Shown here piece by piece: positions 33,441 to 64,000 of a stretch of DNA of 64,000 nucleotides. Under the pieces are notes generated by a model. It saw only the letters and a list, made by a program, of their open reading frames with translations, had not been told where the DNA came from and searched no databases. Both the position numbers and the translations under genes were made by a program. Location of the stretch: the NCBI GenBank assembly GCA_947172415.1, contig OX359198.1, positions 7,148,401 to 7,212,400 of the forward strand. The letters are read 5' to 3'. The stretch is from Chondrosia reniformis (taxonomy: Eukaryota; Porifera; Demospongiae; Chondrillida; Chondrillidae). Within the stretch, counting starts at the first letter, position 1; each line of letters opens with the position of its first letter.

Positions 33441-34420
33441 TGCTTGGTGTGTTTCTATTCTTATAAGTTAAAATTCTGGTCTGAAGTTAAAAATTGGGTT
33501 CTGAACTGTGATTTTAAAATTCTGAGTTTCCTGAAGTTAAAATTCCAGATGCATGTTTCTTTGCTGAAGTCAAAAAAATCCTTGCTCAAGTTGAAAAGTT
33601 AATTCTTTGAACAGTTAAAAAGTCTTCGCTGAAGTTAATCTTTGCTGAAGTTAAAATAAATCTCTGCTGAAGTTAAAAATTTCTTTGCTGAAGTTAAAAA
33701 AATTCTTTGCTAGTTAATTTTTCTTTTTTGCTGAAGTTAAATTTTTTGCTAAAGTTAAAAAGTTCCGTGTGAAGTGAAAACATTTCTTTGCTGCATGAAG
33801 TTAAAAAAATCTCTGTTGAAGTTATTTTTTTTCTTTGCTGAATTTCCTTTGCTGGTTGAAAATTTCCTTTGCTGAAGTTAAAAAAAAATGTTAAAATTCT
33901 TAGCTGAAGTTAAAATATTTCCTTTGCTTAAGTTAAAAAAAATGTTAAAAATTTTTGCTGAAGTTAAAATATTTCCTTTGCTGAACTTTCTTTGCTGAAG
34001 TTAAAAAATGTTGAATTCTTTGCTGAAGTTAAAAAATCCTTTGCTGAAGTTAAAAAATGTTATAAAAAAATTCTTAGCTGAAGTTAAAATATTTCCTTTG
34101 CTGAAGTTAAAAAAAAATGTTAAAATTCTTAGCTGAAGTTAAAATATTTCCTTTGCTGAAGTTAAAAAAATGTTAAAAAAATCTTTGCTGAAGTTAAAAT
34201 ATTTCCTTTGCTGAACTTTCTTTGCTGAAGTTAAAAAATCCTTTGCTGAAGTTAAAATATTTCCATTGCTGAACTTTCTTTAAATTTGCTGAAGTTAAAA
34301 AAATGCTGAAAAATTCTTTGCTGAAGTTAAAAAAAATGTTAAAAAATTCCTTTGCTGAAGTTAAAAAATGTCTTTGCTGAAGTTTAAAAATTCTTTTCTG
34401 AAGTTAAAGTTATATAACTA
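33441..34420. repeat. Degenerate AT-rich repeat field (CTTTGCTGAAGTTAAAA)
   Basis: About 1 kb made almost wholly of variants of CTTTGCTGAAGTTAAAA, with poly-A and poly-T length changes and irregular spacing. Well over 30 copies are visible. It lies between the two GC-rich islands. Confidence 0.9.
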
Positions 34421-37426: not shown

Positions 37427-38434
37427 TTAGGTTGTACTAATAGGCTTCAGGACAGGAACAGCTCTAGGGGAGAATGAACATACAGAATGTTTGAAACAAA
37501 GAGATTCAAGTAAACATTGTAGTCTGTTGTGTAAACACAAAATTTGATATAAATATAAATATTTATGAACTGACTTTTCGGGAGAGGACTTGCACACCTT
37601 CCAAAAGAGTCCAAATAGGAGGAGTACCAGCAGTGCAGTCACAACTACCACAATTGGGACCACTACAGCCAGACCCAGCTCAGGGTTGCACTCAAAGAAG
37701 CCATTGCATGTGGCCTCAGTTGGAGTAGATATAGCAGCTGAAACTGTCTCTGAGAACTCTGTTAGACCTGCAGAGCTATTGCATCTCACCTATTATAGAG
37801 GAACGTCTATCTAAGTATAGTACACAGCATGTATACAAGTAAGCACAACCCAATTATACAAGTATATATAATAGATTTTAGATAGGCTATACAGATAAAC
37901 GATACATGCACATGCACTATTTGATCACTGATAGCCTTTTATATCATGGTTCCATTTCACTTTTAATTCCACGAACTCACTTGGAAAACATACAATCCAT
38001 CGTCATCAACTACGGCTAAGTATGTATTCTGATCTCTGGGCAACAGTACACTCTATTGAAATAGCAAATCAAAAGTGTAGAGAAGATAACACTTTATTAA
38101 TCTGAGGGAAGCATATAATGACGACTTACTGTTCTCTCTGGTTCTGGAGCACGGGCCTCCAATTCATTCATTGGAAGAGGAATTATACCCTACATGATGT
38201 ATTGAAGAATTATGTAGACATTATTACATGCACGGACTTTCAAAATACTTGTACATGATTTTTCTGATAAAATGACCAATATCCTAGCAGATCTCACATT
38301 AGAATCAAATTGAGTTTCTTGTCGGAAATAGACAAGTTCACATTCACGAGATATTCCCCGAGAATACTCCCAAGTCACTTCAAAGTGGCTAGTATTCACG
38401 GCTCTCACTTGAACATTAACTGGTGGCAATGGAA
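37427..38434 (-). other. FN3 domain, transmembrane helix and tail of the CCP receptor (4 exons)
   Basis: Exons 38434-38298, 38189-38130, 38052-37981 and 37789-37427 join in phase. One FN3 domain is spread over all four: PLPPVNVQVRAVNTSHFEVT, a loop with EARAPEPERT, NTYLAVVDDDGLYVFQ and VRCNSSAGLTEFSETV. A Thr-rich linker with two cysteines follows, then a hydrophobic helix of about 23 residues (VVVPIVVVVTALLVLLLFG) and KVCKSS as stop-transfer. The ~50-residue tail is cysteine- and tyrosine-rich (HKYLYLYQ) and has no recognised signalling motif. The donor at 38298 (GTGAGA) is chosen because it gives a complete FN3 fold and keeps phase 0. Confidence 0.82.
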
Positions 38435-41400: not shown

Positions 41401-44400
41401 GGTCCAGGGTTGACCACAATCAATTACTGCAATGACATATACGTATGTATAGGACAAGTGTACGTTTGTATCTTGTATTCCTTATCATAGATATGTAATG
41501 GTTATAGCCCAGAGGTGAATCTACATCCAAATATAACGTGAGCCCTAGATGGAGCCTAGGATAAGTGAGTGGAAGTCTTTTCTTCCTGTTGAACTACTCA
41601 CTCATGCAGGTTGGTGATGGTCCACTCCACTGCTCATCTTCCTGGCAAGTTACCAAGGGAATACCAACCAGCTGGTAGCCCTCATTGCAAATGTAGCGAG
41701 CAACTGATAGATAGGTTGTCCCTCTACTCACATCAAATATGCCATTCTCCACTGGTGGAGGACTGCTACAGTCAATAGCTATATACAAAATGACAAGATT
41801 GTGTCATCATATATGTAACTTGTGCAACAAACTCTTCTATAAACATAAACTTTTACTCACTTTGACATTGAGGTGCAGTTTCACTCCATCCACCAGTGTC
41901 CCCGCACACTCTAGTCCTGGATCCAATTAGTCCAAAGCCTGTATCACAAATATAGCTTGCAGTGGAGCCATAAACCAGTCCATTGGAATAGTGCACGTCG
42001 CCATTCACCACCGGAGCCTCCTCTCCACACCTCGCAACTGAATTAAGTGGCACTCATGACTCAACCTTTCTTCTGTAGCTACAAATACACTCACTTTCAC
42101 AGGCTGGTTCATCTCCACTCCATGTCCCATCCGCTAGACATGTCCTTGTTTGTGGTCCAACACGACTATACCCTTGTATGCATCTGTAGTGTGCAAACTT
42201 GCCCAGTGTGGTCCCGCGGAAGTGATCTATAATGGCACCCTCTATTGGAGCAGGCTCACCACAGTCAACCTCTGCAAAGAACAGTATGGAGAAAGAGGGA
42301 GTTACTTGTGCAATTCCTGTACAGGGCTATGGTATGTATGCTATGGATAATCAGATTATATACACTAAACCTATCCATCTGGGAGGCGATCAAAGTTTGC
42401 CACTTTCAATAGGACTTTGGTCCTCCAGCCATATATAATAATACCTTGGTTGGTTTAGTGTAATATATTCCACTGATTATTCATGGCAACTATTTATATG
42501 ACTTTACTGTTACAGTGAGAAGGGGCATATTAATCTAAAAGATCAGGATCTGCTATGTATATGTATGCATATACATATATACTTGAAACAAACCTTCACA
42601 GATTGGTACTTCACTATTCCATTGTCCATCAGCTCCACAAACAGCAAATGAATTGCCCCTCAAAATGTAGCCAGGATCACATGAGAACAGAGCCACTGAT
42701 TGGTATGTGGTACCATCACTCAGTTTAGTATCACCATTTGGCAGAGATGCAAGAATTCCACAGTCAACACCTAAATATTTTAACAATATTCACATTTTTA
42801 AAATAGTTAACAATATTCAAACCTTATCATCATGAATATAACACATATTCATAACATACCAACACATTGAGGTCCAGTCAATGACCAGGTACCATCCCTG
42901 GTACATGTTCTTGTTGCCCTGTTAGCATTGTCCAACTCATAGCCGCTGTCACATGAATAGGTTATGATAGATTGTAGAGTTGTTCCGCCACTTTCGTCAA
43001 TTCGCCCATTTTGAACTGGAGGTGGACTACCACAGTCAACCGCTGAAGGAGAAGAATTATTTGTCATCATTCATATCTGCTACTAATGACATGGAAGACT
43101 CACGATTACAGGCTGGTTCATTTCTGCTCCATTTGCCATTGCTCTGACATGTCCTCTCTTCAGCACCTTCTAAAATATAACCATCATCACAAGTATAGCT
43201 AGCTACAGCATTTAATAATGTTCCAAAAACAGTTGATGCTCGACCATTTTCAATGTCTTCCAAAGTGCCACAATCTATTACTAAGTGTGAATGGAAATAT
43301 TAAACTCTAATAGATTGCTGACAATTAAGACAATTTGCAATATATGTACACGCATACATATATACAATCCAAAGGTAATCGTGAAGTGCATGGGATTCTA
43401 CTAATTACAGAACCTTCACACCTTTAGAAGTATAAGACTTACCTTGACATTCAATTGTATCCACTCCTCCCCATTCTTGGTTTCGACCACACTGTGCCAG
43501 GTTGTTCTCAACAGGTTCATATCCTTCCACACAGGTATATAAAGCCACACTATAAATAAAATTACCTCTACTTGCGTCTACAGTAGCATTTGCTACCGCT
43601 GGAGGAGAACCACATTCAGTGACTAAAGTAGAGAGCAAAGATATTTTAACATTTTAAATGACAACAGTGAAACCTCTTCACTGACCTTCAGGAGTGCATA
43701 ATGGTACTGATCCACTCCATATACTGTTATCCTGACAGAGCCTTACAGAATCACCAGTAATTACAAATCCTGAATTACAATGGTACACTGCTATATCACC
43801 GAATTCAGTACCAGAGTATGACACATCACCCGTACCAACTGAGATACTACCTGGAATACCGCAATCCTTGACTACATAAAGAAAATAAACCATTGAAAAT
43901 TTTAAGGTATACGAATGTATCAATGAAAGTGCAGTGATTAGATTTTATAAAAATCTCAACAAATAATTGACTTACTAATACAAGATGGTACACTGCCATC
44001 TCCCCAAATGCCAATTGCAATGCATTGTCTATCTGGGTCCCCAAGCAAGGAATACCCGGTATCACAGAAATAGGTCACTCTATCACCAAACACAGTTCCA
44101 TCACTAAGACTGTAGCCTCCACTAGCAATACTTGTCGGAGCACCACAGTCAATCACTATACATACATACGTACATATTGTATATAATATATTTAAAATTC
44201 AACAATATTACTATACGTATACCACGTATACAAATTTATACAAATTTACATTTAGGCTTACTTTCACAAAAAGCATCATTTTCCTTCCATATTCCTATTG
44301 CTAGACACTGTCTTGCCAGTGTATCACCCACAATACGATATCCAACATTACATGAATAAGTAGCTATAGCTTCATATAATGCATCACCCATGTCCAAAAT

Positions 44401-47400
44401 CTGTCCATTCAGCAACAGTGGTGGAGTTCCACATGATACCTCTGTATGTTAGACAAGAGGTATTCTCAAAGGCCAAAGCACTCTTTATCTTTATCAACTC
44501 TTACTCACTCTGACAAGTTGGTTCTGAAGCACTCCAATCTCCAAAGGGTGCCGCTGTAGCACTGGAATTCTCCTCACACACTTGGACAGTCACAGATCCT
44601 CCCACAAACTCATATCCCTCATCACAAGTGTAGACGGCCGCCGATCCAAAGTTGGCATCATCTGTTAGCTCAACATCACCATTTGAAGGGGAACTTCTTG
44701 CTGGACAAGTTATTCCTACAAATACATGGGACAAGCTGGATATATAAACACCAATACAAATCAACATTTCACATATTTGCTATTATTATATTAAGAAAGG
44801 TATCCTTTGACTTGCCTAATGTAAAGGAAATTTCCCTGAATGAAAAGTATAAACCATTTGAAATAAATCTTAAAAGGCATTAATTTAAAAATAAGATAAT
44901 AGTCTTCTTAATTCTAGACATTTACTGGCAAAGGTGTCTCACTTGTACAGGTGGGTAGTGCACTCCATGAGGTATTACTCATGCAGGTAACAATAGTGTT
45001 GTCACTTGTCTGAAAGCCTTCTACACAGGTATATCTCAACTCATCTTCAAAGCTAGTTCCTCCAACAGCAATAACGGCATTATTCACCGAAGGTGGTATT
45101 CCACACTCCACACCTATTATTAAAAACAATAGAATATCTCCAGTCCTTTGAATAGATATCATCACAGGAATTTACCTTCACAGACCAAGTCACTTTCGCT
45201 CCACTGCCCATTTGCCAAACAAGTTCGACTTTGTAGCTCACCCTGAGCAGTATATCCACTATCACAAGTGTACGTAGCTGTCTGCCCAAAGCTTGTATTA
45301 CTGGGATTGTCTAACACTCCATTGACTACACCAGGAGCAGTTCCACAGTCCACAACTGTAAAAGAGACAGTAGAGTAACATTCTACCCTACTCGTGGCTA
45401 GAGAGCAGCAGTCAAACGGCATCTTCCTTTAAGACCCCAATAACACAGCATTCTACACTTCATTGAAACTAAGGGCTCATATATAAGATTCTATGGGCAT
45501 ACACCCTTTGACACTCACTCTGACAAGTTGGTTCTGAAGCAGTCCAATCTCCAAAGGGTGCTGCTGTAGCACTGGGATTCTCCTCACACACTTGGACAGT
45601 CACAGATCCTCCCACAAACTCATATCCCTCATCACAAGTGTAGACGGCCGCCGATCCAAAGTTGGCATCATCTGTTAGCTCAACATCACCATTTGAAGGG
45701 GAACCTCTTGCTGGGCAAGTTATTACTGCAGATAGAAAACAGCCAGCCTCTTACAGGTGCACTGCACATTGCTAGGATAATAATTATAATTCATTTAGTT
45801 TTTCTAGCTGGAATTGGCTCTCATCCTTCCTGATGAAAGGAGTCAACACATTTATCCATCTCCAAATTGGTTCTGTCTTGCCAATCAACTTACTCCGCTA
45901 CGGCTAGGGACTTTAATTAATGACTATTCTTACTGACTTACTGTCACAGGTGGGTTCTGAGTTGGTTGAGAACCAGTCTCCACTGTCATCACATGTTCTT
46001 GTTGCAACAGCAGTGGAAAGTCTGTAGCCGGTCTCACAGAAATACAATAACTGGCCATTAAAGTCGTTGCTGAGAATGGAGAAACCTCCATGGTCAATCT
46101 CATCAGGCAATACGCATGTGACGGCTGCAGAACGAGTAGAAAATCTCTCCATTAGTGTGCTATTGCTACCATTAATGCAGATTCTCACAAATCTACCCTC
46201 TTATCCTAATGGACCAAGCCATGGGACTTACCTTCACAGACCAAGTCACTTTCGCTCCACTGCCCATTTGCCAGACAAGTTCGACTTTGTAACTCACCCT
46301 GAGCAGTATATCCACTATCACAAGTGTACGTAGCTGTCTGCCCAAAGCTTGTATTACTGGGATTGTCTAACACTCCATTGACTACACCAGGAGCAGTTCC
46401 ACAGTCCACAACTGTAAAAGAGACAGTAGAGTAACATTCTACCCTACTCGTGGCTAGAGAGCAGCAGTCAAACGGTATCTTCCTTTAAGAACCCAATAAC
46501 AGAGACTTTTTCCAGCATTGTACAGTTCATTGAAAATAAGGGCTCATATATAAGATTCTATGGGCATACACCCTTTGACACTCACTCTGACAAGTTGGTT
46601 CTGAAGCAGTCCAATCTCCAAAGGGTGCCGCTGTAGCACTGGGATTCTCCTCACACACTTGGACAGTCACAGATCCTCCCACAAACTCATATCCCTCATC
46701 ACAAGTGTAGACGGCCGCCGATCCAAAGTTGGCATCATCTGTTAGCTCAACATCACCATTTGACGGGGGACCTCTTACTGGACAGGTTATTACTGCAGAA
46801 AGAAAACAGCCAGCCTCTTACAGGTGCACTGCACATTGCTAGGATAATAATTATAATTCATTTAGTTTTCAAAGTTCCTTCTAGCAGGAAACTGGCTCGA
46901 TCTCATCCTTCCTGATGAAAGGAGTCAACACATTTATCCATCTCCAAATTGGTTCTGTCTTGCCAATCAACTTACTCCGCTACGGCTAGGGACTTTAATT
47001 AATGACTATTCTTACTGACTTACTGTCACAGGTGGGTTCTGAGTTGGTTGAGAACCAGTCTCCACTGTCATCACATGTTCTTGTTGCAACAGCAGTGGAA
47101 AGTCTGTAGCCGGTCTCACAGAAATACAATAACTGGCCATTAAAGTCGTTGCTGAGAATGGAGAAACCTCCATGGTCAATCTCATCAGGCAATACGCATG
47201 TGACGGCTGCAGAACGAGTAGAAAATCTCTCCATTAGTGTGCTATTGCTACCATTAATGCAGATTCTCACAAATCTACCCTCTTATCCTAATGGACCAAG
47301 CCATGGGACTTACCTTCACAGACCAAGTCACTTTCGCTCCACTGCCCATTTGCCAGACAAGTTCGACTTTGTAGCTCACCCTGAGCAGTATATCCACTAT

Positions 47401-50400
47401 CACAAGTGTACGTAGCTGTCTGCCCAAAGCTTGTATTACTGGGATTGTCTAACACTCCATTGACTACACCAGGAGCAGTTCCACAGTCCACAACTGTAAA
47501 AGAGACAGTAGAGTAACATTCTACCCTACTCGTGGCTAGAGAGCAGCAGTCAAACGGTATCTTCCTTTAAGAACCCAATAACAGAGACTTTTTCCAGCAT
47601 TGTACAGTTCATTGAAAATAAGGGCTCATATATAAGATTCTATGGGCATACACCCTTTGACACTCACTCTGACAAGTTGGTTCTGAAGCAGTCCAATCTC
47701 CAAAGGGTGCCGCTGTAGCACTGGGATTCTCCTCACACACTTGGACAGTCACAGATCCTCCCACAAACTCATATCCCTCATCACAAGTGTAGACGGCCGC
47801 CGATCCAAAGTTGGCATCATCTGTTAGCTCAACATCACCATTTGACGGGGGACCTCTTACTGGACAGGTTATTACTGCAGAAAGAAAACAGCCAGCCTCT
47901 TACAGGTGCACTGCACATTGCTAGGATAATAATTATAATTCATTTAGTTTTCAAAGTTCCTTCTAGCAGGAAACTGGCTCGATCTCATCCTTCCTGATGA
48001 AAGGAGTCAACACATTTATCCATCTCCAAATTGGTTCTGTCTTGCCAATCAACTTACTCCGCTACGGCTAGGGACTTTAATTAATGACTATTCTTACTGA
48101 CTTACTGTCACAGGTGGGTTCTGAGTTGGTTGAGAACCAGTCTCCACTGTCATCACATGTTCTTGTTGCAACAGCAGTGGAAAGTCTGTAGCCGGTCTCA
48201 CAGAAATACAATAACTGGCCATTAAAGTCGTTGCTGAGAATGGAGAAACCTCCATGGTCAATCTCATCAGGCAATACGCATGTGACGGCTGCAGAACGAG
48301 TAGAAAATCTCTCCATTAGTGTGCTATTGCTACCATTAATGCAGATTCTCACAAATCTACCCTCTTATCCTAATGGACCAAGCCATGGGACTTACCTTCA
48401 CAGACCAAGTCACTTTCGCTCCACTGCCCATTTGCCAGACAAGTTCGACTTTGTAGCTCACCCTGAGCAGTATATCCACTATCACAAGTGTACGTAGCTG
48501 TCTGCCCAAAGCTTGTATTACTGGGATTGTCTAACACTCCATTGACTACACCAGGAGCAGTTCCACAGTCCACAACTGTAAAAGAGACAGTAGAGTAACA
48601 TTCTACCCTACTCGTTGCTAGAGAGCAGCAGTCAAACGGCATCTTCCTTTAAGACCCTAATAACACAGCATTCTACACTTCATTGAAACTAAGGGCTCAT
48701 ATATAAGATTCTATGGGCATACACCCTTGGACACTCACTCTGACAAGTTGGTTCTGAAGCAGTCCAATCTCCAAAGGGTGCCGCTGTAGCACTGGGATTC
48801 TCCTCACACACTTGGACAGTCACAGATCCTCCCACAAACTCATATCCCTCATCACAAGTGTAGACGGCCGCAGATCCAAAGTTGGCATCATCTGTTAGCT
48901 CAACATCACCATTTGAAGGGGAACCTCTTGCTGGACAAGTTATTACTGCAGATAGAAAACAGCCAGCCTCTTACAGGTGCACTGCACATTGCTAGGATAA
49001 TAATTATAATTCATTTAGTTTTTAAAAGTTCCTTCTAGCTGGAACTGGCTCTCATCCTTCCTGATGAAAGGAGTCAACACATTTATCCATCTCCAAATTG
49101 GTTCTGTCTTGCCAATCAACTTACTCCGCTACGGCTAGGGACTTTAGTTAATGACTATTCTTGTTGACTTACTGTCACAGGTGGGTACTGAGTCAGTTGA
49201 GAACCAGTCTCCACTGTCATCACATGTTCTTGTTGCAACAGCAGTGGAAAGTCTGTAGCCGGTCTCACAGAAATACAATAACTGGCCATTAAACTCGTTG
49301 TTGAGAATGGAGAAACCTCCATGGTCAATCTCATCAGGAAATATGCATGTGACGGCTGCAGAACGAGTAGAAACATCTCTCCATTAGTGTGATATTGCTA
49401 CCATTAACGCAGATTCTCACAAGTCTACCCTCTTATCCTAATGGACCGAGCCATGGGACTTACCTTCACAGACCAAGTCACTTTCGCTCCACTGCCCATT
49501 TGCCAGACAAGTTCGACTTTGTAGCTCACCCTGAGCAGTATATCCACTATCACAAGTGTACGTAGCTGTCTGCCCAAAGCTTGTATTACCGGGATTGTCT
49601 AACACTCCATTGACTACACCAGGAGCAGTTCCACAGTCCACAACTGTAAAAGAGACAGTAGAGTAACATTCTACCCTACTCGTTGCTAGAGAGCAGCAGT
49701 CAAACGGCATCTTCCTTTAAGACCCCAATAACACAGCATTCTACACTTCATTGAAACTAAGGGCTCATATATAAGATTCTATGGGCATACACCCTTTGAC
49801 ACTCACTCTGACAAGTTGGTTCTGAAGCAGTCCAATCTCCAAAGGGTGCTGCTGTAGCACTGGGATTCTCCTCACACACTTGGACAGTCACAGATCCTCC
49901 CACAAACTCATATCCCTCATCACAAGTGTAGACGGCCGCTGATCCAAAGTTGGCATCATCTGTTAGCTCAACATCACCATTTGAAGGGGAACCTCTTGCT
50001 GGGCAAGTTATTACTGCAGATAGAAAACAGCCAGCCTCTTACAGGTGCACTGCACATTGCTAGGATAAGAATTATAATTCATTTAGTTTTTCTAGCTGGA
50101 ATTGGCTCTCATCCTTCCTGATGAAAGGAGTCAACACATTTATCCATCTCCAAATTGGTTCTGTCTTGCCAATCAACTTACTCCGCTACGGCTAGGGACT
50201 TTAATTAATGACTATTCTTACTGACTTACTGTCACAGGTGGGTTCTGAGTTGGTTGAGAACCAGTCTCCACTGTCATCACATGTTCTTGTTGCAACAGCA
50301 GTGGAAAGTCTGTAGCCGGTCTCACAGAAATACAATAACTGGCCATTAAAGTCATTGCTGAGAATGGAGAAACCTCCATGGTCAATCTCATCAGGCAATA

Positions 50401-53400
50401 CGCATGTGACGGCTGCAGAACGAGTAGAAAATCTCTCCATTAGTGTGCTATTGCTACCATTAGCGCAGATTGTCACAAGTCTACCCTCTTATCCTAATGG
50501 ACCGAGCCATGGGACTTACCTTCACAGACCAAGTCACTTTCGCTCCACTGCCCATTTGCCAGACAAGTTCGACTTTGCAGCTCGCCCTGAGCAGTATATC
50601 CACTATTACAAGCGTACGTAGCTGTCTGCCCAAAGCTTGTATCACCGGGATTTACTAACATTCCGTTGACTACACCAGGAGCAGTTCCACAGTCCACAAC
50701 TGTAAAAGAGACAGTAGAGTAACATTCTACCCTACTCGTGGCTAGAGAGCAGCAGTCAAACGGCATCTTCCTTTAAGATCCCAAAAACATATACTTTTCC
50801 AATATTGTACACTTCTAAGGGCTCATATATAAGATTCTATGGGCATACACCCTTTGACACTCACTCTGACAAGTTGGTTCTGAGGCAGTCCAATCTCCAA
50901 AGGGTGCCGCTGTAGCACTGGGATTCTCCTCACACACTTGGACAGTCACAGATCCTCCCACAAACTCATATCCCTCATCACAAGTGTAGACGGCCGCCGA
51001 TCCAAAGTTGGCATCATCTGTTAGCTCAACATCACCATTTGAAGGGGAACCTCTTGCTGGACAAGTTATTACTGCAGATAGAAAACAGCCAGCCTCTTAC
51101 AGGTGCACTGCACATTGCTAGGATAAGAATTATAATTCATTTAGTTTTCAAAGTTCCTTCTAGCAGGAACTGGCTCTCATCCTTCCTGATGAAAGGAGTC
51201 AACACATTTATCCATCTCCAAATTGGTTCTATCTTGCCAATCAACTTACTCCGCTACGGCTAGGGACTTTAATTAATGACTATTCTTGTTGACTTACTGT
51301 CACAGGTGGGTACTGAGTCGGTTGAGAACCAGTCTCCACTGTCATCACATGTTCTTGTTGCAACAGAAGTGGAAAGTCTGTAGCCGGTCTCACAGAAATA
51401 CAATAACTGGCCATTAAACTCGTTGTTGAGAATGGAGAAACCTCCATGGTCAATCTCATCAGGCAATACGCATGCGACGGCTGCAGAACGAGTAGAAAAT
51501 CTCTCCATTAGTGTGCTATTGCTACCATTAACGCAGATTGTCACAAGTCTACCCTCTTATCCTAATGGACCCAAGCCATGGGACTTACCTTCACAGACCA
51601 AGTCACTTTCGCTCCACTGCCCATTTGCCAGACAAATTCGACTTTGTAGCTCACCCTGAGCAGTATATCCACTATCACAAGTGTACGTAGCTGTCTGCCC
51701 AAAGCTTGTATTACCGGGATTGTCTAACACTCCATTGACTACACCAGGAGCAGTTCCACAGTCCACAACTGTAAAAGAGACAGTAGAGTAACATTCTACC
51801 CTACTCGTTGCTAGAGAGCAGCAGTCAAACGGTATCTTCCTTTAAGATCCCAATAACATATACTTTTCCAATATTGTACACTTCTAAGGGCTCATATATA
51901 AGATTCTATGGGCATACACCCTTTGACACTCACTCTGACAAGTTGGTTCTGAGGCAGTCCAATCTCCAAAGGGTGCCGCTGTAGCACTGGGATTCTCCTC
52001 ACACACTTGGACAGTCACAGATCCTCCCACAAACTCATATCCCTCATCACAAGTGTAGACGGCCGCCGATCCAAAGTTGGCATCATCTGTTAGCTCAACA
52101 TCACCATTTGAAGGGGAACCTCTTGCTGGGCAAGTTATTACTGCAGATAGAAAACAGCCAGCCTCTTACAGGTGCACTGCACATTGCTAGGATAATAATT
52201 ATAATTCATTTAGTTTTTAAAAGTTCCTTCTAGCTGGAACTGGCTCTCATCCTTCCTGATGAAAGGAGTCAACACATTTATCCATCTCCAAATTGGTTCT
52301 GTCTTGCCAATCAACTTACTCCGCTATAGCTAGGGACTTTAGTTAATGACTATTCTTGTTGACTTACTGTCACAGGTGGGTACTGAGTCAGTTGAGAACC
52401 AGTCTCCACTGTCGTCACATGTTCTTGTTGCAACAGAAGTGGAAAGTCTGTAGCCGGTCTCACAGAAATACAATAACTGGCCATTAAACTCGTTGTTGAG
52501 AATGGAGAAACCTCCATGGTCAATCTCATCAGGCAATATGCATGTGACGGCTGCAGAACGAGTAGAAACATCTCTCCATTAGTGTGATATTGCTACCATT
52601 AACGCAGATTGTCACAAGTCTACCCTCTTATCCTAATGGACCAAGCCATGGGACTTACCTTCACAGACCAAGTCACTTTCGCTCCACTGCCCATTTGCCA
52701 GACAAGTTCGACTTTGTAGCTCACCCTGAGCAGTATATCCACTATCACAAGTGTACGTAGCTGTCTGCCCAAAGCTTGTATTACTGGGATTGTCTAACAC
52801 TCCATTGACTACACCAGGAGCAGTTCCACAGTCCACAACTGTAAAAGAGACAGTAGAGTAACATTCTACCCTACTCGTGGCTAGAGAGCAGCAGTCAAAC
52901 GGCATCTTCCTTTAAGACCCTAATAACACAGCATTCTACACTTCATTGAAAATAAGGGCTCATATATAAGATTCTATGGGCATACACCCTTGGACACTCA
53001 CTCTGACAAGTTGGTTCTGAAGCAGTCCAATCTCCAAAGGGTGCCGCTGTAGCACTGGGATTCTCCTCACACACTTGGACAGTCACAGATCCTCCCACAA
53101 ACTCATATCCCTCATCACAAGTGTAGACGGCCGCCGATCCAAAGTTGGCATCATCTGTTAGCTCAACATCACCATTTGAAGGGGAACCTCTTGCTGGACA
53201 AGTTATTACTGCAGATAGAAAACAGCCAGCCTCTTACAGGTGCACTGCACATTGCTAGGATAATAATTATAATTCATTTAGTTTTTAAAAGTTCCTTCTA
53301 GCTGGAACTGGCTCTCATCCTTCCTGATGAAAGGAGTCAACACATTTATCCATCTCCAAATTGGTTCTGTCTTGCCAATCAACTTACTCCGCTACGGCTA

Positions 53401-56400
53401 GGGACTTTAGTTAATGACTATTCTTGTTGACTTACTGTCACAGGTGGGTACTGAGTCAGTTGAGAACCAGTCTCCACTGTCATCACATGTTCTTGTTGCA
53501 ACAGCAGTGGAAAGTCTGTAGCCGGTCTCACAGAAATACAATAACTGGCCATTAAACTCGTTGTTGAGAATGGAGAAACCTCCATGGTCAATCTCATCAG
53601 GAAATATGCATGTGACGGCTGCAGAACGAGTAGAAACATCTCTCCATTAGTGTGATATTGCTACCATTAACGCAGATTCTCACAAGTCTACCCTCTTATC
53701 CTAATGGACCGAGCCATGGGACTTACCTTCACAGACCAAGTCACTTTCGCTCCACTGCCCATTTGCCAGACAAGTTCGACTTTGTAGCTCACCCTGAGCA
53801 GTATATCCACTATCACAAGTGTACGTAGCTGTCTGCCCAAAGCTTGTATTACCGGGATTGTCTAACACTCCATTGACTACACCAGGAGCAGTTCCACAGT
53901 CCACAACTGTAAAAGAGACAGTAGAGTAACATTCTACCCTACTCGTGGCTAGAGAGCAGCAGTCAAACGGTATCTTCCTTTAAGACCCCAATAACACAGC
54001 ATTCTACACTTCATTGAAACTAAGGGCTCATATATAAGATTCTATGGGCATACACCCTTTGACACTCACTCTGACAAGTTGGTTCTGAAGCAGTCCAATC
54101 TCCAAAGGGTGCCGCTGTAGCACTGGGATTCTCCTCACACACTTGGACAGTCACAGATCCTCCCACAAACTCATATCCCTCATCACAAGTGTAGACGGCC
54201 GCCGATCCAAAGTTGGCATCATCTGTTAGCTCAACATCACCATTTGACGGGGGACCTCTTACTGGACAGGTTATTACTGCAGAAAGAAAACAGCCAGCCT
54301 CTTACAGGTGCACTGCACATTGCTAGGATAATAATTATAATTCATTTAGTTTTCAAAGTTCCTTCTAGCAGGAAACTGGCTCGATCTCATCCTTCCTGAT
54401 GAAAGGAGTCAACACATTTATCCATCTCCAAATTGGTTCTGTCTTGCCAATCAACTTACTCCGCTACGGCTAGGGACTTTAATTAATGACTATTCTTACT
54501 GACTTACTGTCACAGGTGGGTTCTGAGTTGGTTGAGAACCAGTCTCCACTGTCATCACATGTTCTTGTTGCAACAGCAGTGGAAAGTCTGTAGCCGGTCT
54601 CACAGAAATACAATAACTGGCCATTAAAGTCATTGCTGAGAATGGAGAAACCTCCATGGTCAATCTCATCAGGCAATACGCATGTGACGGCTGCAGAACG
54701 AGTAGAAAATCTCTCCATTAGTGTGCTATTGCTACCATTAATGCAGATTCTCACAAATCTACCCTCTTATCCTAATGGACCAAGCCATGGGACTTACCTT
54801 CACAGACCAAGTCACTTTCGCTCCACTGCCCATTTGCCAGACAAGTTCGACTTTGTAACTCACCCTGAGCAGTATATCCACTATCACAAGTGTACGTAGC
54901 TGTCTGCCCAAAGCTTGTATTACTGGGATTGTCTAACACTCCATTGACTACACCAGGAGCAGTTCCACAGTCCACAACTGTAAAAGAGACAGTAGAGTAA
55001 CATTCTACCCTACTCGTGGCTAGAGAGCAGCAGTCAAACGGCATATTCCTTTAAGACCCTAATAACACAGCATTCTACACTTCATTGAAAATAAGGGCTC
55101 ATATATAAGATTCTATGGGTAAACACCCTTGGACACTCACTCTGACAAGTTGGTTCTGAAGCAGTCCAATCTCCAAAGGGTGCCGCTGTAGCACTGGGAT
55201 TCTCCTCACACACTTGGACAGTCACAGATCCTCCCACAAACTCATATCCCTCATCACAAGTGTAGACGGCCGCCGATCCAAAGTTGGCATCATCTGTTAG
55301 CTCAACATCACCATTTGAAGGGGAACCTCTTGCTGGACAAGTTATTACTGCAGATAGAAAACAGCCAGCCTCTTACAGGTGCACTGCACATTGCTAGGAT
55401 AATAATTATAATTCATTTAGTTTTTAAAAGTTCCTTCTAGCTGGAACTGGCTCTCATCCTTCCTGATGAAAGGAGTCAACACATTTATCCATCTCCAAAT
55501 TGGTTCTGTCTTGCCAATCAACTTACTCCGCTACGGCTAGGGACTTTAGTTAATGACTATTCTTGTTGACTTACTGTCACAGGTGGGTACTGAGTCAGTT
55601 GAGAACCAGTCTCCACTGTCATCACATGTTCTTGTTGCAACAGCAGTGGAAAGTCTGTAGCCGGTCTCACAGAAATACAATAACTGGCCATTAAACTCGT
55701 TGTTGAGAATGGAGAAACCTCCATGGTCAATCTCATCAGGAAATATGCATGTGACGGCTGCAGAACGAGTAGAAACATCTCTCCATTAGTGTGATATTAC
55801 TACCATTAACGCAGATTGTCACAAGTCTACCCTCTTATCCTAATGGACCGAGCCATGGGACTTACCTTCACAGACCAAGTCACTTTCGCTCCACTGCCCA
55901 TTTGCCAGACAAGTTCGACTTTGTAGCTCACCCTGAGCAGTATATCCACTATCACAAGTGTACGTAGCTGTCTGCCCAAAGCTTGTATTACCGGGATTGT
56001 CTAACACTCCATTGACTACACCAGGAGCAGTTCCACAGTCCACAACTGTAAAAGAGACAGTAGAGTAACATTCTACCCTACTCGTTGCTAGAGAGCAGCA
56101 GTCAAACGGTATCTTCCTTTAAGACCCCAATAACACAGCATTCTACACTTCATTGAAACTAAGGGCTCATATATAAGATTCTATGGGCATACACCCTTTG
56201 ACACTCACTCTGACAAGTTGGTTCTGAGGCAGTCCAATCCCCAAAGGGTGCCGCTGTAGCACTGGGATTCTCCTCACACACTTGGACAGTCACAGATCCT
56301 CCCACAAACTCATATCCCTCATCACAAGTGTAGACGGCCGCTGATCCAAAGTTGGCATCATCTGTTAGCTCAACATCACCATTTGAAGGGGAACCTCTTG

Positions 56401-59400
56401 CTGGGCAAGTTATTACTGCAGATAGAAAACAGCCAGCCTCTTACAGGTGCACTGCACATTGCTAGGATAAGAATTATAATTCATTTAGTTTTTCTAGCTG
56501 GAATTGGCTCTCATCCTTCCTGATGAAAGGAGTCAACACATTTATCCATCTCCAAATTGGTTCTGTCTTGCCAATCAACTTACTCCGCTACGGCTAGGGA
56601 CTTTAATTAATGACTATTCTTACTGACTTACTGTCACAGGTGGGTTCTGAGTTGGTTGAGAACCAGTCTCCACTGTCATCACATGTTCTTGTTGCAACAG
56701 CAGTGGAAAGTCTGTAGCCGGTCTCACAGAAATACAATAACTGGCCATTAAAGTCATTGCTGAGAATGGAGAAACCTCCATGGTCAATCTCATCAGGCAA
56801 TACGCATGTGACGGCTGCAGAACGAGTAGAAAATCTCTCCATTAGTGTGCTATTGCTACCATTAGCGCAGATTGTCACAAGTCTACCCTCTTATCCTAAT
56901 GGACCGAGCCATGGGACTTACCTTCACAGACCAAGTCACTTTCGCTCCACTGCCCATTTGCCAGACAAGTTCGACTTTGCAGCTCGCCCTGAGCAGTATA
57001 TCCACTATTACAAGCGTACGTAGCTGTCTGCCCAAAGCTTGTATCACCGGGATTTACTAACATTCCGTTGACTACACCAGGAGCAGTTCCACAGTCCACA
57101 ACTGTAAAAGAGACAGTAGAGTAACATTCTACCCTACTCGTGGCTAGAGAGCAGCAGTCAAACGGCATCTTCCTTTAAGAACCCAATAACAGAGACTTTT
57201 TCCAGCATTGTACAGTTCATTGAAAATAAGGGCTCATATATAAGATTCTATGCGCATACACCCTTTGACACTCACTCTGACAAGTTGGTTCTGAGGCAGT
57301 CCAATCCCCAAAGGGTGCCGCTGTAGCACTGGGATTCTCCTCACACACTTGGACAGTCACAGATCCTCCCACAAACTCATATCCCTCATCACAAGTGTAG
57401 ACGGCCGCCGATCCAAAGTTGGCATCATCTGTTAGCTCAACATCACCATTTGACGGGGTACCTCTTACTGGACAGGTTATTACTGCAGAAAGAAAACAGC
57501 CAGCCTCCTATAGGTGCACTGCACATTGCTAGGATGATAATTATAATTCATTTAGTTTTCAAAGTTTCTTCTAGCAGGAAACTGGCTCGATCTCATCCTT
57601 CCTGATGAAAGGAGTCAACACATTTATCCATCTCCAAATTGGTTCTGTCTTGCCAATCAACTTACTCCGCTACGGCTAGGGACTTTAATTAATGACTATT
57701 CTTACTGACTTACTGTCACAGGTGGGTTCTGAGTTGGTTGAGAACCAGTCTCCACTGTCATCACATGTTCTTGTTGCAACAGCAGTGGAAAGTCTGTAGC
57801 CGGTCTCACAGAAATACAATAACTGGCCATTAAAGTCGTTGCTGAGAATGGAGAAACCTCCATGGTCAATCTCATCAGGCAATACGCATGTGACGGCTGC
57901 AGAACGAGTAGAAAATCTCTCCATTAGTGTGCTATTGCTACCATTAATGCAGATTCTCACAAATCTACCCTCTTATCCTAATGGACCAAGCCATGGGACT
58001 TACCTTCACAGACCAAGTCACTTTCGCTCCACTGCCCATTTGCCAGACAAGTTCGACTTTGTAACTCACCCTGAGCAGTATATCCACTATCACAAGTGTA
58101 CGTAGCTGTCTGCCCAAAGCTTGTATTACTGGGATTTACTAACATTCCGTTGACTACACCAGGAGCAGTTCCACAGTCCACAACTGTAAAAGAGACAGTA
58201 GAGTAACATTCTACCCTACTCGTGGCTAGAGAGCAGCAGTCAAACGGTATCTTCCTTTAAGAACCCAATAACAGAGACTTTTTCCAGCATTGTACAGTTC
58301 ATTGAAAATAAGGGCTCATATATAAGATTCTATGGGCATACACCCTTTGACACTCACTCTGACAAGTTGGTTCTGAAGCAGTCCAATCTCCAAAGGGTGC
58401 CGCTGTAGCACTGGGATTCTCCTCACACACTTGGACAGTCACAGATCCTCCCACAAACTCATATCCCTCATCACAAGTGTAGACGGCCGCCGATCCAAAG
58501 TTGGCATCATCTGTTAGCTCAACATCACCATTTGACGGGGGACCTCTTACTGGACAGGTTATTACTGCAGAAAGAAAACAGCCAGCCTCTTACAGGTGCA
58601 CTGCACATTGCTAGGATAATAATTATAATTCATTTAGTTTTCAAAGTTCCTTCTAGCAGGAAACTGGCTCGATCTCATCCTTCCTGATGAAAGGAGTCAA
58701 CACATTTATCCATCTCCAAATTGGTTCTGTCTTGCCAATCAACTTACTCCGCTACGGCTAGGGACTTTAATTAATGACTATTCTTACTGACTTACTGTCA
58801 CAGGTGGGTTCTGAGTTGGTTGAGAACCAGTCTCCACTGTCATCACATGTTCTTGTTGCAACAGCAGTGGAAAGTCTGTAGCCGGTCTCACAGAAATACA
58901 ATAACTGGCCATTAAAGTCATTGCTGAGAATGGAGAAACCTCCATGGTCAATCTCATCAGGCAATACGCATGTGACGGCTGCAGAACGAGTAGAAAATCT
59001 CTCCATTAGTGTGCTATTGCTACCATTAATGCAGATTCTCACAAATCTACCCTCTTATCCTAATGGACCAAGCCATGGGACTTACCTTCACAGACCAAGT
59101 CACTTTCGCTCCACTGCCCATTTGCCAGACAAGTTCGACTTTGCAGCTCGCCCTGAGCAGTATATCCACTATTACAAGCGTACGTAGCTGTCTGCCCAAA
59201 GCTTGTATCACCGGGATTTACTAACATTCCGTTGACTACACCAGGAGCAGTTCCACAGTCCACAACTGTAAAAGAGACAGTAGAGTAACATTCTACCCTA
59301 CTCGTGGCTAGAGAGCAGCAGTCAAACGGTATCTTCCTTTAAGAACCCAATAACAGAGACTTTTTCCAGCATTGTACAGTTCATTGAAAATAAGGGCTCA

Positions 59401-62400
59401 TATATAAGATTCTATGGGCATACACCCTTTGACACTCACTCTGACAAGTTGGTTCTGAAGCAGTCCAATCTCCAAAGGGTGCCGCTGTAGCACTGGGATT
59501 CTCCTCACACACTTGGACAGTCACAGATCCTCCCACAAACTCATATCCCTCATCACAAGTGTAGACGGCCGCCGATCCAAAGTTGGCATCATCTGTTAGC
59601 TCAACATCACCATTTGACGGGGGACCTCTTACTGGACAGGTTATTACTGCAGAAAGAAAACAGCCAGCCTCTTACAGGTGCACTGCACATTGCTAGGATA
59701 ATAATTAAAATTCATTTAGTTTTCAAAGTTCCTTCTAGCAGGAAACTGGCTCGATCTCATCCTTCCTGATGAAAGGAGTCAACACATTTATCCATCTCCA
59801 AATTGGTTCTGTCTTGCCAATCAACTTACTCCGCTACGGCTAGGGACTTTAATTAATGACTATTCTTACTGACTTACTGTCACAGGTGGGTTCTGAGTTG
59901 GTTGAGAACCAGTCTCCACTGTCATCACATGTTCTTGTTGCAACAGCAGTGGAAAGTCTGTAGCCGGTCTCACAGAAATACAATAACTGGCCATTAAAGT
60001 CATTGCTGAGAATGGAGAAACCTCCATGGTCAATCTCATCAGGCAATACGCATGTGACGGCTGCAGAACGAGTAGAAAATCTCTCCATTAGTGTGCTATT
60101 GCTACCATTAATGCAGATTCTCACAAATCTACCCTCTTATCCTAATGGACCAAGCCATGGGACTTACCTTCACAGACCAAGTCACTTTCGCTCCACTGCC
60201 CATTTGCCAGACAAGTTCGACTTTGCAGCTCGCCCTGAGCAGTATATCCACTATTACAAGTGTACGTAGCTGTCTGCCCAAAGCTTGTATCACCGGGATT
60301 TACTAACATTCCGTTGACTACACCAGGAGCAGTTCCACAGTCCACAACTGTAAAAGAGACAGTAGAGTAACATTCTACCCTACTCGTGGCTAGAGAGCAG
60401 CAGTCAAACGGCATCTTCCTTTAAGAACCCAATAACAGAGACTTTTTCCAGCATTGTACAGTTCATTGAAAATAAGGGCTCATATATAAGATTCTATGCG
60501 CATACACCCTTTGACACTCACTCTGACAAGTTGGTTCTGAAGCAGTCCAATCTCCAAAGGGTGCCGCTGTAGCACTGGGATTCTCCTCACACACTTGGAC
60601 AGTCACAGATCCTCCCACAAACTCATATCCCTCATCACAAGTGTAGACGGCCGCCGATCCAAAGTTGGCATCATCTGTTAGCTCAACATCACCATTTGAC
60701 GGGGTACCTCTTACTGGACAGGTTATTACTGCAGAAAGAAAACAGCCAGCCTCCTATAGGTGCACTGCACATTGCTAGGATGATAATTATAATTCATTTA
60801 GTTTTCAAAGTTTCTTCTAGCAGGAAACTGGCTCGATCTCATCCTTCCTGATGAAAGGAGTCAACACATTTATCCATCTCCAAATTGGTTCTGTCTTGCC
60901 AATCAACTTACTCCGCTACGGCTAGGGACTTTAATTAATGACTATTCTTACTGACTTACTGTCACAGGTGGGTTCTGAGTTGGTTGAGAACCAGTCTCCA
61001 CTGTCATCACATGTTCTTGTTGCAACAGCAGTGGAAAGTCTGTAGCCGGTCTCACAGAAATACAATAACTGGCCATTAAAGTCGTTGCTGAGAATGGAGA
61101 AACCTCCATGGTCAATCTCATCAGGCAATACGCATGTGACGGCTGCAGAACGAGTAGAAAATCTCTCCATTAGTGTGCTATTGCTACCATTAATGCAGAT
61201 TCTCACAAATCTACCCTCTTATCCTAATGGACCAAGCCATGGGACTTACCTTCACATACCAAGTCACTTTCGCTCCATTGCCCATTTGCCAGACAAGTTC
61301 GACTTTGCAGCTCGCCCTGAGCAGTATATCCACTATTACAAGCGTACGTAGCTGTCTGCCCAAAGCTTGTATCACCGGGATTTACTAACATTCCGTTGAC
61401 TACACCAGGAGCAGTTCCACAGTCCACAACTGTAAAAGAGACAGTAGAGTAACATTCTACCCTACTCGTGGCTAGAGAGCAGCAGTCAAACGGCATCTTC
61501 CTTTAAGAACCCAATAACAGAGACTTTTTCCAGCATTGTACAGTTCATTGAAAATAAGGGCTCATATATAAGATTCTATGCGCATACACCCTTTGACACT
61601 CACTCTGACAAGTTGGTTCTGAAGCAGTCCAATCTCCAAAGGGTGCCGCTGTAGCACTGGGATTCTCCTCACACACTTGGACAGTCACAGATCCTCCCAC
61701 AAACTCATATCCCTCATCACAAGTGTAGACGGCCGCCGATCCAAAGTTGGCATCATCTGTTAGCTCAACATCACCATTTGACGGGGTACCTCTTACTGGA
61801 CAGGTTATTACTGCAGAAAGAAAACAGCCAGCCTCTTATAGGTGCACTGCACATTGCTAGGATAATAATTATAATTTATTTAGTTTTCAAAGTTTCTTCT
61901 AGCAGGAAACTGGCTCGATCTCATCCTTCCTGATGAAAGGAGTCAACACATTTATCCATCTCCAAATTGGTTCTGTCTTGCCAATCAACTTACTCCGCTA
62001 CGGCTAGGGACTTTAATTAATGACTATTCTTACTGACTTACTGTCACAGGTGGGTTCTGAGTTGGTTGAGAACCAGTCTCCACTGTCATCACATGTTCTT
62101 GTTGCAACAGCAGTGGAAAGTCTGTAGCCGGTCTCACAGAAATACAATAACTGGCCATTAAAGTCATTGCTGAGAATGGAGAAACCTCCATGGTCAATCT
62201 CATCAGGCAATACGCATGTGACGGCTGCAGAACGAGTAGAAAATCTCTCCATTAGTGTGCTATTGCTACCATTAATGCAGATTCTCACAAATCTACCCTC
62301 TTATCCTAATGGACCAAGCCATGGGACTTACCTTCACAGACCAAGTCACTTTCGCTCCACTGCCCATTTGCCAGACAAGTTCGACTTTGCAGCTCGCCCT

Positions 62401-63974
62401 GAGCAGTATATCCACTATTACAAGCGTACGTAGCTGTCTGCCCAAAGCTTGTATCACCGGGATTTACTAACATTCCGTTGACTACACCAGGAGCAGTTCC
62501 ACAGTCCACAACTGTAAAAGAGACAGTAGAGTAACATTCTACCCTACTCGTGGCTAGAGAGCAGCAGTCAAACGGCATCTTCCTTTAAGAACCCAATAAC
62601 AGAGACTTTTTCCAGCATTGTACAGTTCATTGAAAATAAGGGCTCATATATAAGATTCTATGCGCATACACCCTTTGACACTCACTCTGACAAGTTGGTT
62701 CTGAAGCAGTCCAATCTCCAAAGGGTGCCGCTGTAGCACTGGGATTCTCCTCACACACTTGGACAGTCACAGATCCTCCCACAAACTCATATCCCTCATC
62801 ACAAGTGTAGACGGCCGCCGATCCAAAGTTGGCATCATCTGTTAGCTCAACATCACCATTTGACGGGGGACCTCTTACTGGACAGGTTATTACTGCAGAA
62901 AGAAAACAGCCAGCCTCTTATAGGTGCACTGCACATTGCTAGGATAATAATTATAATTTATTTAGTTTTCAAAGTTTCTTCTAGCAGGAATCTGGCTCGA
63001 TCTCATCCTTCCTGATGAAAGGAGTCAACACATTTATCCATCTCCAAATTGGTTCTGTCTTGCCAATCAACTTACTCCGCTACGGCTAGGGACTTTAATT
63101 AATGACTATTCTTACTGACTTACTGTCACAGGTGGGTTCTGAGTTGGTTGAGAACCAGTCTCCACTGTCATCACATGTTCTTGTTGCAACAGCAGTGGAA
63201 AGTCTGTAGCCGGTCTCACAGAAATACAATAACTGGCCATTAAAGTCATTGCTGAGAATGGAGAAACCTCCATGGTCAATCTCATCAGGCAATACGCATG
63301 TGACGGCTGCAGAACGAGTAGAAAATCTCTCCATTAGTGTGCTATTGCTACCATTAATGCAGATTCTCACAAATCTACCCTCTTATCCTAATGGACCGAG
63401 CCATGGGACTTACCTTCACAGACCAAGTCACTTTCGCTCCACTGCCCATTTGCCAGACAAGTTCGACTTTGCAGCTCGCCCTGAGCAGTATATCCACTAT
63501 TACAAGCGTACGTAGCTGTCTGCCCAAAGCTTGTATCACCGGGATTTACTAACATTCCGTTGACTACACCAGGAGCAGTTCCACAGTCCACAACTGTAAA
63601 AGAGACAGTAGAGTAACATTCTACCCTACTCGTGGCTAGAGAGCAGCAGTCAAACGGCATCTTCCTTTAAGAACCCAATAACAGAGACTTTTTCCAGCAT
63701 TGTACAGTTCATTGAAAATAAGGGCTCATATATAAGATTCTATGCGCATACACCCTTTGACACTCACTCTGACAAGTTGGTTCTGAAGCAGTCCAATCTC
63801 CAAAGGGTGCCGCTGTAGCACTGGGATTCTCCTCACACACTTGGACAGTCACAGATCCTCCCACAAACTCATATCCCTCATCACAAGTGTAGACGGCCGC
63901 CGATCCAAAGTTGGCATCATCTGTTAGCTCAACATCACCATTTGACGGGGGACCTCTTACTGGACAGGTTATTA
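37427..63974 (-). CDS. Giant CCP/Sushi-domain type I membrane receptor, 5' end outside window (at least 80 exons)
   Basis: Read from right to left, 76 exons each encode one CCP domain (four cysteines, with a D-C-G start, Y-x-C-D-x-G-Y middle and W-S end). Four exons follow for an FN3 domain, a membrane helix and a tail. Every CCP exon is phase 1-1, so any number can be gained or lost without a frameshift. The order toward the C-terminus is: high-identity A-B-C array (44509 to the window edge), then 21 diverged CCP exons (38535-44441), FN3, helix and stop at 37427. CCP domains serve in protein binding, adhesion and complement regulation; a cell-surface recognition or adhesion role is inferred. 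The signal peptide is not in the window. I see no gap, stop or terminator that would split this into two genes. Assembly errors in the array are possible. Confidence 0.92.
38535..44441 (-). other. 21 diverged single-exon CCP domains
   Basis: Exons start (lower coordinate) at 38535, 38791, 39056, 39300, 39748, 39979, 40275, 40516, 40761, 41008, 41247, 41602, 41861, 42095, 42594, 42860, 43104, 43443, 43686, 43976 and 44262, each 174-186 bases. All have the CCP cysteine pattern. They are far more diverged from one another than the array units to the right, and their introns are unrelated, so this block is older. Several contain N-x-S/T glycosylation sites (for example NGTWSG, NGEWNGT, NGSWSS). 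The longest gaps between exons (39477-39747, 41427-41601, 42272-42593) hold no further coding sequence that I can see. Confidence 0.92.
44943..45113 (-). other. Divergent CCP exon occupying the B position of the terminal unit
   Basis: Lies between an A exon (45176) and a C exon (44509), exactly where B should be, but encodes a different CCP (ECGIPPSVNNAVIAVGG, then YTCVEGFQTSDNT). 171 bases, phase 1-1, intact. Either a replacement of B or the ancestral arrangement. Confidence 0.88.
45176..63593 (-). other. Array exon class A (18 copies, 180 bases)
   Basis: Lower coordinates 45176, 46232, 47314, 48396, 49464, 50520, 51589, 52659, 53727, 54798, 55866, 56922, 58004, 59086, 60168, 61250, 62332 and 63414. 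Core DCGTAPGVVNG then SFGQTATY, ending QWSESDLVCEG. Subtypes: A1 with VLDNPSNTS (45176-48396, 52659, 54798); A2 with VLDNPGNTS (49464, 51589, 53727, 55866); A3 with MLVNPGDTS and usually YACNSGY (50520, 56922, 59086, 61250-63414). The copy at 58004 (MLVNPSNTS with YTCDSGY) is an A1/A3 hybrid and 60168 (MLVNPGDTS with YTCNSGY) is a variant. All are open and intact. Confidence 0.95.
45942..63306 (-). other. Array exon class B (17 copies, 183 bases)
   Basis: Lower coordinates 45942, 47024, 48106, 49173, 50230, 51298, 52368, 53436, 54508, 55575, 56632, 57714, 58796, 59878, 60960, 62042 and 63124. Core PDEIDHGGFSILSNDFNGQL, then YFCETGYRLSTAVATRTCDD. Two subtypes: B1 (SNDF, STNSEPT) and B2 (NNEF, STDSVPT; at 49173, 51298, 52368, 53436 and 55575). 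B2 copies at 51298 and 52368 have SVATRT. In the copies at 49173, 53436 and 55575 Leu before PDEID is replaced by Phe. The segment lacks the usual D-C-G start (TCVLPDE instead) but keeps four cysteines. Confidence 0.93.
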
Positions 63975-64000
63975 CTGCAGAAAGAAAACAGCCAGCCTCT

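Follow-up and report, generated by a model that had tools for sequence, protein, structure and literature searches.

In the kidney sponge Chondrosia reniformis, one receptor frame carries 19, 12, 8, 8, 0 and 0 copies of a three-CCP unit at a shared site close to the first CCP in six paralogous loci of a single genome, and this natural series of unit numbers is a new result. The array of 19 units belongs to the locus labelled chr10, on a chromosome of 7,657,449 bases, and most of it lies in the window, the whole stretch of 64,000 nucleotides that was analysed. The reading that we prefer, at a probability of about 0.6, is that of a CR1-like giant type I receptor, whose N-terminal three-CCP module is gained or lost whole and acts multivalently. 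The series shows how symmetrical exons allow a receptor to change its length by whole blocks, and the same site has been amplified with two different three-CCP units. To our knowledge, sponges have no adaptive immunity, and these loci may be used for asking how they distinguish symbionts, or self from others.

The array spans 20.2 kb, overruns the window by 675 bases and comprises 19 units with 57 CCP exons (Table 1). A search for the exon patterns and their borders found 19 C, 18 B and 19 A exons, all 56 of them with AG/GT borders and a length divisible by 3, and confirmed the 18 complete units and one partial unit that the earlier note had described in the window. The interpretation given in that note as a whole is partly supported. 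Its order A-B-C holds along the plus strand, whereas the coding order, 5' to 3' on the minus strand, is C-B-A. The exons of 180 (C), 183 (B) and 207 bp (A) make up 570 bp, or 190 aa, per unit, and each exon of the example unit scores above the Pfam Sushi cut-off. The constant unit proposed before was found in 18 of the 19 cases, with a length of 1056-1082 bp and 190 added residues each, but not at the left edge of the window, where the unit has a distinct middle CCP (B', a 171-bp exon), a spacing of 1010 bp and 186 added residues. The chr3 arrays have a middle CCP with which B' shares about 75% identity. The array is absent from the list of Tandem Repeats Finder, in which the longest period is 500.

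Table 1. Features of the chr10 receptor gene (positions in the window unless prefixed L010).
Feature	Position	Strand	Exons or basis
C-B-A CCP exon array, in-window part	44509..64000	-	5' end outside the window at L010:675
Final C exon of the array, beyond the window	L010:496-675		
A exon of the partial unit	63768-63974		
Example unit	62686..63593	-	C 63414-63593, B 63124-63306, A 62686-62892
3'-edge unit	44509..45355	-	C 45176-45355, B' 44943-45113, A 44509-44715
Stalk, 21 diverse single-exon CCPs	38535..44441	-	own CCP profile >20 bits and exon borders
FN3-like domain, three exons, runs into the next exon	37981..38434	-	38298-38434, 38130-38189, 37981-38052
Exon with end of FN3-like domain and hydrophobic membrane helix	37575..37789	-	helix by eye
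Last coding exon, end of short predicted cytoplasmic tail	37427..37463	-	gene model

The gene model joins 85 exons in a single open frame of 5,114 residues. A signal peptide is followed by 79 CCP exons and a weak FN3-like domain, then by a hydrophobic membrane helix with a short tail, which bears out the proposal of a giant receptor gene. The signal peptide was judged by hydropathy only, and the membrane helix by eye and hydropathy, without a TM program. The upstream end of the gene, a search for which had been suggested earlier, was found with the signal-peptide exon at 66.5 kb on the extended scale. The FN3-like exons (137, 60 and 72 bp) have identical lengths in the chr1 paralog, and the region is 77% identical between the two genes without gaps. 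The Pfam fn3 profile does not reach its cut-off of 25 bits here (16.0 bits, E 0.015), though its positions 2-81 of 84 align; the domain is matched marginally by chains that we take to be FN3-containing. The exon with the membrane helix matches seven genomic loci at 84-100% identity. Upstream of the receptor gene lies a DIP2-like gene (read by eye), one piece of which was identified as AMP-binding in Pfam (E 7.6e-9). The continuation of the receptor gene to CCP exons at 159-179 kb (extended scale) was rejected, given this intervening gene and the position of the signal-peptide exon, and our own CCP profile detected no CCP above 20 bits between 65.9 and 159.2 kb on the same scale.

The introns of the array are about as conserved as the exons, as had been claimed: among 18 units the mean pairwise differences are 2.4%, 2.8% and 3.1% in the three introns, and 3.2%, 2.0% and 1.8% in the C, B and A exons, respectively. 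The recent amplification by whole units is also seen in individual copies, since units 16 and 17 do not differ at all and units 8-9-10 match units 14-15-16 at 99.6, 99.3 and 99.4%. At this six-unit offset, these 3 consecutive pairs out of 12 reach 99.3-99.6%, while the remaining 9 match at 94.7-98.6%. Exact repeats reach up to 1,241 bp in the array and up to 234 bp (a short minisatellite, shifted by 39 bp) in one 20-kb stretch outside it on this chromosome, so the repetitiveness of the array is not due to chance. The pN/pS ratios in chr10 are 0.19 for A, 0.41 for C and 0.75 for B; therefore, the array is under some constraint, which is weak in the B exon. Diversifying selection was also considered, and the data do not demonstrate it. 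The overall pN/pS is below 1 for every exon type in both chr10 and chr1, but pN exceeds pS in several windows of 12 codons, including 3 of the 9 windows in the C exon of chr10, two of them with pS of zero; the number of sites behind these values is small, and no significance test was applied to them.

The six loci carry the same stalk CCP. Two of them contain C-B-A units, two contain C''-B'-A units and two splice directly past the site. Whole units have turned over between these paralogs of one genome, and the number of in-frame CCP blocks varies among them without a change of frame, in agreement with the frame-neutral behaviour predicted in the earlier note. The A exons are 98.0% identical within chr10, 93.0% within chr1, 84.8% between chr1 and chr10, and 79.4% between chr10 and chr3. 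The C exons of chr1 resemble one another (86.0%) scarcely more than they resemble those of chr10 (84.0%). The units of chr3a and chr3b do not separate by locus (97.7% identity between, 98.3 and 97.5% within), and chr3b has its own two-unit duplication, exact over 1,856 bp. In the two paralogs without units, the final part of the intron at the site matches the intron after the chr3a array (0/500 shuffles as good); its start does not match the intron before that array (228/500 shuffles as good), and against the chr3b intron 2/500 shuffles are as good. It is favoured, but not proven, that the zero-unit state would have arisen by deletion of an array like that of chr3a; the main reason is that the arrays of the chr10 and chr1 genes, which are more distant, end in A. 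Just one side of the zero-unit intron agrees with such a deletion. Look-alike candidates for the signal-peptide exon are present in chr3a, chr3b and chr3e (scores 28-29) without a consensus phase-1 donor; no clear match to this exon was found in the paralogs, and chr3d and chr1 have no similar candidate (scores 18-20).

With CCP exons of phase 1-1, as in the gene model, any unit number keeps the frame, and units would most likely be gained and lost by misaligned recombination inside introns. Multivalency might be the most likely use of the array, with one copy of a binding surface per unit, the 21-CCP stalk holding the units off the membrane, and the unit number setting avidity and reach. The shortness of the tail points to a role in adhesion or capture, or to a partner that would transmit the signal.

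A possible, though not a likely, alternative is that the array merely sets length, placing the conserved N-terminal first CCP far from the cell, and that the units bind nothing. Such a spacer would fit the 66-74% identity of the first CCP in comparisons of chr10 with the four chr3 genes, as well as the retention of the first CCP and stalk in both unit-free paralogs, but it would need neither the conservation of the A exon nor the clustering of variable residues in C, where four of the seven columns that vary in chr10 fall at columns 13-20, the stretch that is also most variable in chr1. It is rather doubtful that the array is a recognition region variable in length and sequence, in which individuals differ in unit numbers and mosaics and recombination drives an individual-specific surface code for symbionts or self. 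The generation of many isoforms of one gene by skipping or choosing in-frame units is improbable: each unit could be skipped without a change of frame, but the choice among near-identical units would add little beyond length, and all borders look constitutive by consensus.

Gross inflation of the array in the assembly is unlikely, because its longest exact repeat is 1.24 kb, and a mean HiFi read length of about 12.9 kb can be calculated from the genome note. The array does exceed the mean read and contains two identical units, but a true number of units far from 19 is very improbable, considering that the primary QV is 69.8, that a shift of 1,082 bp with at most 10 mismatches is sustained over at most 2,729 bp, that the 214 kb examined contain a single N run (194001-199000), and that further arrays of 12, 8 and 8 units were assembled elsewhere. 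A decaying, functionless array, which recent near-identical copies might conceal and which has a parallel in a chr3 stalk fragment whose CCP is broken (C3:1630204-1630890), is scarcely credible and was rejected in view of the single open frame across 85 exons and of pN/pS values that stay below 1 for each of the three exon types.

Among known systems, the multiadhesive protein of Geodia cydonium and the SRCRs of Halichondria panicea combine CCP and FN3 modules (PMC10855680, PMC8242945), and CCP and FN3-like modules also occur together here. No SRCR exon was identified among the 85 exons of the model, which encode signal peptide, CCP, FN3-like, membrane and tail parts (Pfam on selected exons), and the assignment to SRCR-type or aggregation receptors of sponges was rejected on this ground; the tandem unit array is likewise not described in the cited excerpts on those proteins. 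Botryllus fester, described as a polymorphic allorecognition membrane receptor that has a single Ig domain, a single sushi domain and three passes through the membrane (PMC12065747), is also an invertebrate membrane receptor of the sushi type, whereas the model has 79 CCPs, one predicted helix and no Ig exon. The kringle IV type 2 repeat of LPA, of about 5.5 kb, is highly variable in copy number between people (PMC12123407) and similarly forms a tandem array, but of kringles in a plasma protein, with another fold and function.

The principle of the CR1-like receptor that we prefer resembles the length alleles of human CR1 and DMBT1, where repeat number affects binding. DMBT1 with 8 instead of 13 SRCR domains is reported to bind fewer bacteria (PMC5435793); it shares with the sponge gene the variation of repeat number in a large repeat protein, and differs in being secreted and built of SRCR domains rather than of CCPs with a predicted membrane helix. 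Human CR1 has a tandem multi-CCP block, alleles differ in the number of blocks, and, according to the cited excerpt, extra blocks add C3b/C4b sites (PMC6121509). By analogy, the array may act like CR1 or DMBT1, a likeness that does not imply family membership. Like CR1 (CD35), the sponge protein is predicted to be a type I membrane protein built from CCPs in tandem, with a repeated multi-CCP block, and it has the long tandem CCP ectodomain on a membrane protein that is typical of the regulators of complement activation (79 CCP exons and a hydrophobic helix). Its unit has three CCPs, not the seven of the long homologous region of CR1, its CCPs number 79 against 30 in the common CR1, an FN3-like domain lies beside the membrane, and the variation in block number observed here is among paralogs of one genome. 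When the exact 190-aa unit was compared with solved structures, the best matches were chains of CR1, CR2 and factor H.

Frame-neutral exon modules, recently homogenised arrays and a unit number that differs at one site among paralogs characterise the giant receptor gene of chr10 and its family. The chr10 gene has three CCP exons that recur in tandem on the minus strand: C of 180 bp, B of 183 bp and A of 207 bp. C is present in 19 copies, B in 18 and A in 19, each copy with a length divisible by three and AG/GT borders. The array ends 675 bases past the window edge. An earlier note had described CCP exons of constant length in every unit, which holds for 18 of the 19; the 3'-most unit carries an alternative middle CCP, B' (171 bp). 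Its claim that introns are as conserved as exons is borne out, the mean pairwise difference across 18 units being 2.4-3.1% in introns vs 1.8-3.2% in exons. Units 16 and 17 do not differ at all. Compared six units apart, units 8 and 14, 9 and 15, and 10 and 16 show 99.6, 99.3 and 99.4% identity, against 94.7-98.6% in the remaining nine pairs, a signature of multi-unit exchange. The intron separating the array from the first CCP contains about 800 bp that resemble a small DNA transposon, with inverted repeats of 28 bp on either side that agree at 25 of 28 positions (L010:847-1645, in the stretch directly right of the window).

Features of the chr10 gene (window scale, extended beyond 64000) and array sites read in the six genes that carry the stalk CCP
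Feature	Position	Strand	Units	Remarks
Signal-peptide exon	66587-66524	minus		MRSMPFWWTSLLLILQIEAAS; upstream of first CCP
First CCP	65935-65744	minus		5' of array
C-B-A array	64675-44509	minus		
Stalk	44441-38535	minus		21 diverse CCP exons; 3' of array
chr10 array site			19	C-B-A
chr1 array site			12	C-B-A
chr3a array site			8	C''-B'-A; first C'' and B' divergent
chr3b array site			8	C''-B'-A; first unit without A
chr3d array site			0	first common stalk CCP 200 bp after first CCP
chr3e array site			0	first common stalk CCP 200 bp after first CCP

The longest exact repeat in the array is 1,241 bp, and with up to 10 mismatches tolerated the repeat at a 1,082-bp shift reaches at most 2,729 bp; the mean HiFi read length, computed from the totals in the genome note, is about 12.9 kb, and the primary QV is given there as 69.8 (PMC12181767). 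Gross inflation of the 19-unit array by the assembly is unlikely, and the true chr10 unit number may lie a few above or below 19. In the assembly examined, of 117,379,552 bases in 15 contigs, the window covers 7148401-7212400 of contig C10 (7,657,449 bases); the genome note reports 117.37 Mb in 14 chromosomes and a mitochondrion (PMC12181767). Within the 214 kb examined the sole run of N lies at 194001-199000.

The upstream end of the gene, for which the earlier note had proposed a search, was located in the form of the first CCP and the signal-peptide exon; on the same strand, further upstream, lies a DIP2-like gene. The stalk is followed by an FN3-like domain, a hydrophobic-helix exon and a short tail. 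The 85 exons joined comprise 15,345 bases over 29.2 kb and read through in a single open frame that encodes 5,114 residues. GT-AG introns (84 of 84) and phase 1-1 CCP exons reflect the criteria by which exon borders were selected, while the single open frame is an unimposed outcome. Comparative support for the model comes from the chr1 paralog, which has kept the three FN3 exons at the same lengths (137, 60 and 72 bp) and, ungapped, with 77% identity. The assignment of this domain to FN3 is weak (Pfam E 0.015, below the cut-off; structure matches marginal), and the signal peptide and membrane helix were assigned from hydropathy and by eye. Of the CCP exons, C, B, A, B' and the first CCP were scanned with Pfam Sushi, and all five scored above the cut-off; the remaining CCP exons were identified, in a partly circular manner, by a profile made from CCPs of the same region, and an independent Pfam search matched at least eight places in the chr10 stalk (among the best 150 of 576 candidates).

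The stalk CCP at 41602-41778, used as a query, has at least six strong copies of 68-100% identity (among the best 150 of 481 candidates scored): chr3 has four of them, and chr10 (the gene itself) and chr1 have one each. All six of these genes also have the membrane exon (84-100% identity), and a seventh copy, 90% identical, lies on contig C3 (C3:1699936; L037:2936-3145) with the stalk marker absent nearby. In the chr3 genes, 5 (3a), 5 (3b), 11 (3d) and 9 (3e) stalk CCPs were read, the 3' ends being taken from search matches only. The first CCP of chr10 is 66-74% identical to those of the four chr3 genes; that of chr1 reaches only 45%, and an extra CCP sits between it and the array. Since the chr10 exon following the array is 53-56% like C'', and chr10 B' up to 75% like chr3 B', both module sets were probably present early on.

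A-exon identity within loci is 98.0% in chr10 (171 pairs), 93.0% in chr1 (66), 98.3% in chr3a (28) and 97.5% in chr3b (21), and between loci 84.8% for chr10-chr1 and 79.4% for chr10-chr3; chr3a and chr3b are not separated from each other (97.7% between loci). The A tree sets the 19 exons of chr10 apart with a support of 0.907, the 15 chr3 exons with 1.000 and 11 of the 12 chr1 exons with 0.977, the twelfth, at the 3' edge, falling outside the chr1 group. The split of the 18 chr10 B exons is supported at 1.000, that of the chr10 C exons at only 0.664, and C exons within chr1 (86.0%) are barely more alike than between chr1 and chr10 (84.0%). Over about 1.2 kb each, stalk DNA is 98.4% identical between chr3a and chr3b and 95.6% between chr3d and chr3a, with 8, 8 and 0 units in chr3a, chr3b and chr3d, and chr3b has its own recent two-unit duplication, in which 1,856 bp repeat exactly when shifted by 1,949 bp. 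Thus, whole-unit gain or loss has happened repeatedly within the family; for the zero-unit state of chr3d and chr3e, deletion is favoured though not proven.

The pN/pS values of C, B and A are 0.41, 0.75 and 0.19 in chr10 (0.43, 0.75 and 0.15 when calculated on 18 units) and 0.71, 0.78 and 0.37 in chr1. Four of the seven variable columns of the chr10 C exon fall in columns 13-20, the most variable stretch in chr1 as well and presumably the hypervariable loop of CCPs. An N-glycosylation sequon is found in this stretch in 11 of 19 chr10 units and is absent from units 1-6, 8 and 14.

The gene probably encodes an extended, multivalent receptor at the cell surface, in which the number of units would set avidity and reach, by analogy with CR1, described as gaining C3b/C4b sites with extra blocks (PMC6121509), and DMBT1, for which bacterial binding is described as scaling with domain number (PMC5435793). 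If there is a core common to the units, the conserved A exon is the strongest candidate for it, and the C loop is the one for a part that can be tuned. An expandable in-frame array of CCP blocks is known in CR1, and the chr10 family is of the same kind. Among the matches listed in a literature search, no title or abstract opening reported an array of CCP exons from any sponge. As far as checked, what is new is its occurrence in a sponge, the unit of three CCPs, the array size and the 19/12/8/8/0/0 series.

Other CCP loci were also observed. In genes on chr12 a single C-like exon, sharing 64-73% identity with C, is repeated in tandem (L027; L028 and L029) with a period of 496 bp; four of five steps in chr12a are near this length, and the spacing in chr12b is irregular. 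A fragment beside the chr3b gene carries three CCPs of the stalk type, of which one is broken (L030:4204-4890). At 159-179 kb of the extended scale (L019-L022), the same strand has two further groups of dissimilar CCP exons, with 43 CCP matches and no near-identical array in them; distant membrane-exon matches lie at C10:7306750 and C10:7319286. The window also contains a minisatellite with a 36-bp unit in about 17 copies (23729-24335) and a minisatellite field of GCTGAAGTTAAA-rich repeats (33558-34408).
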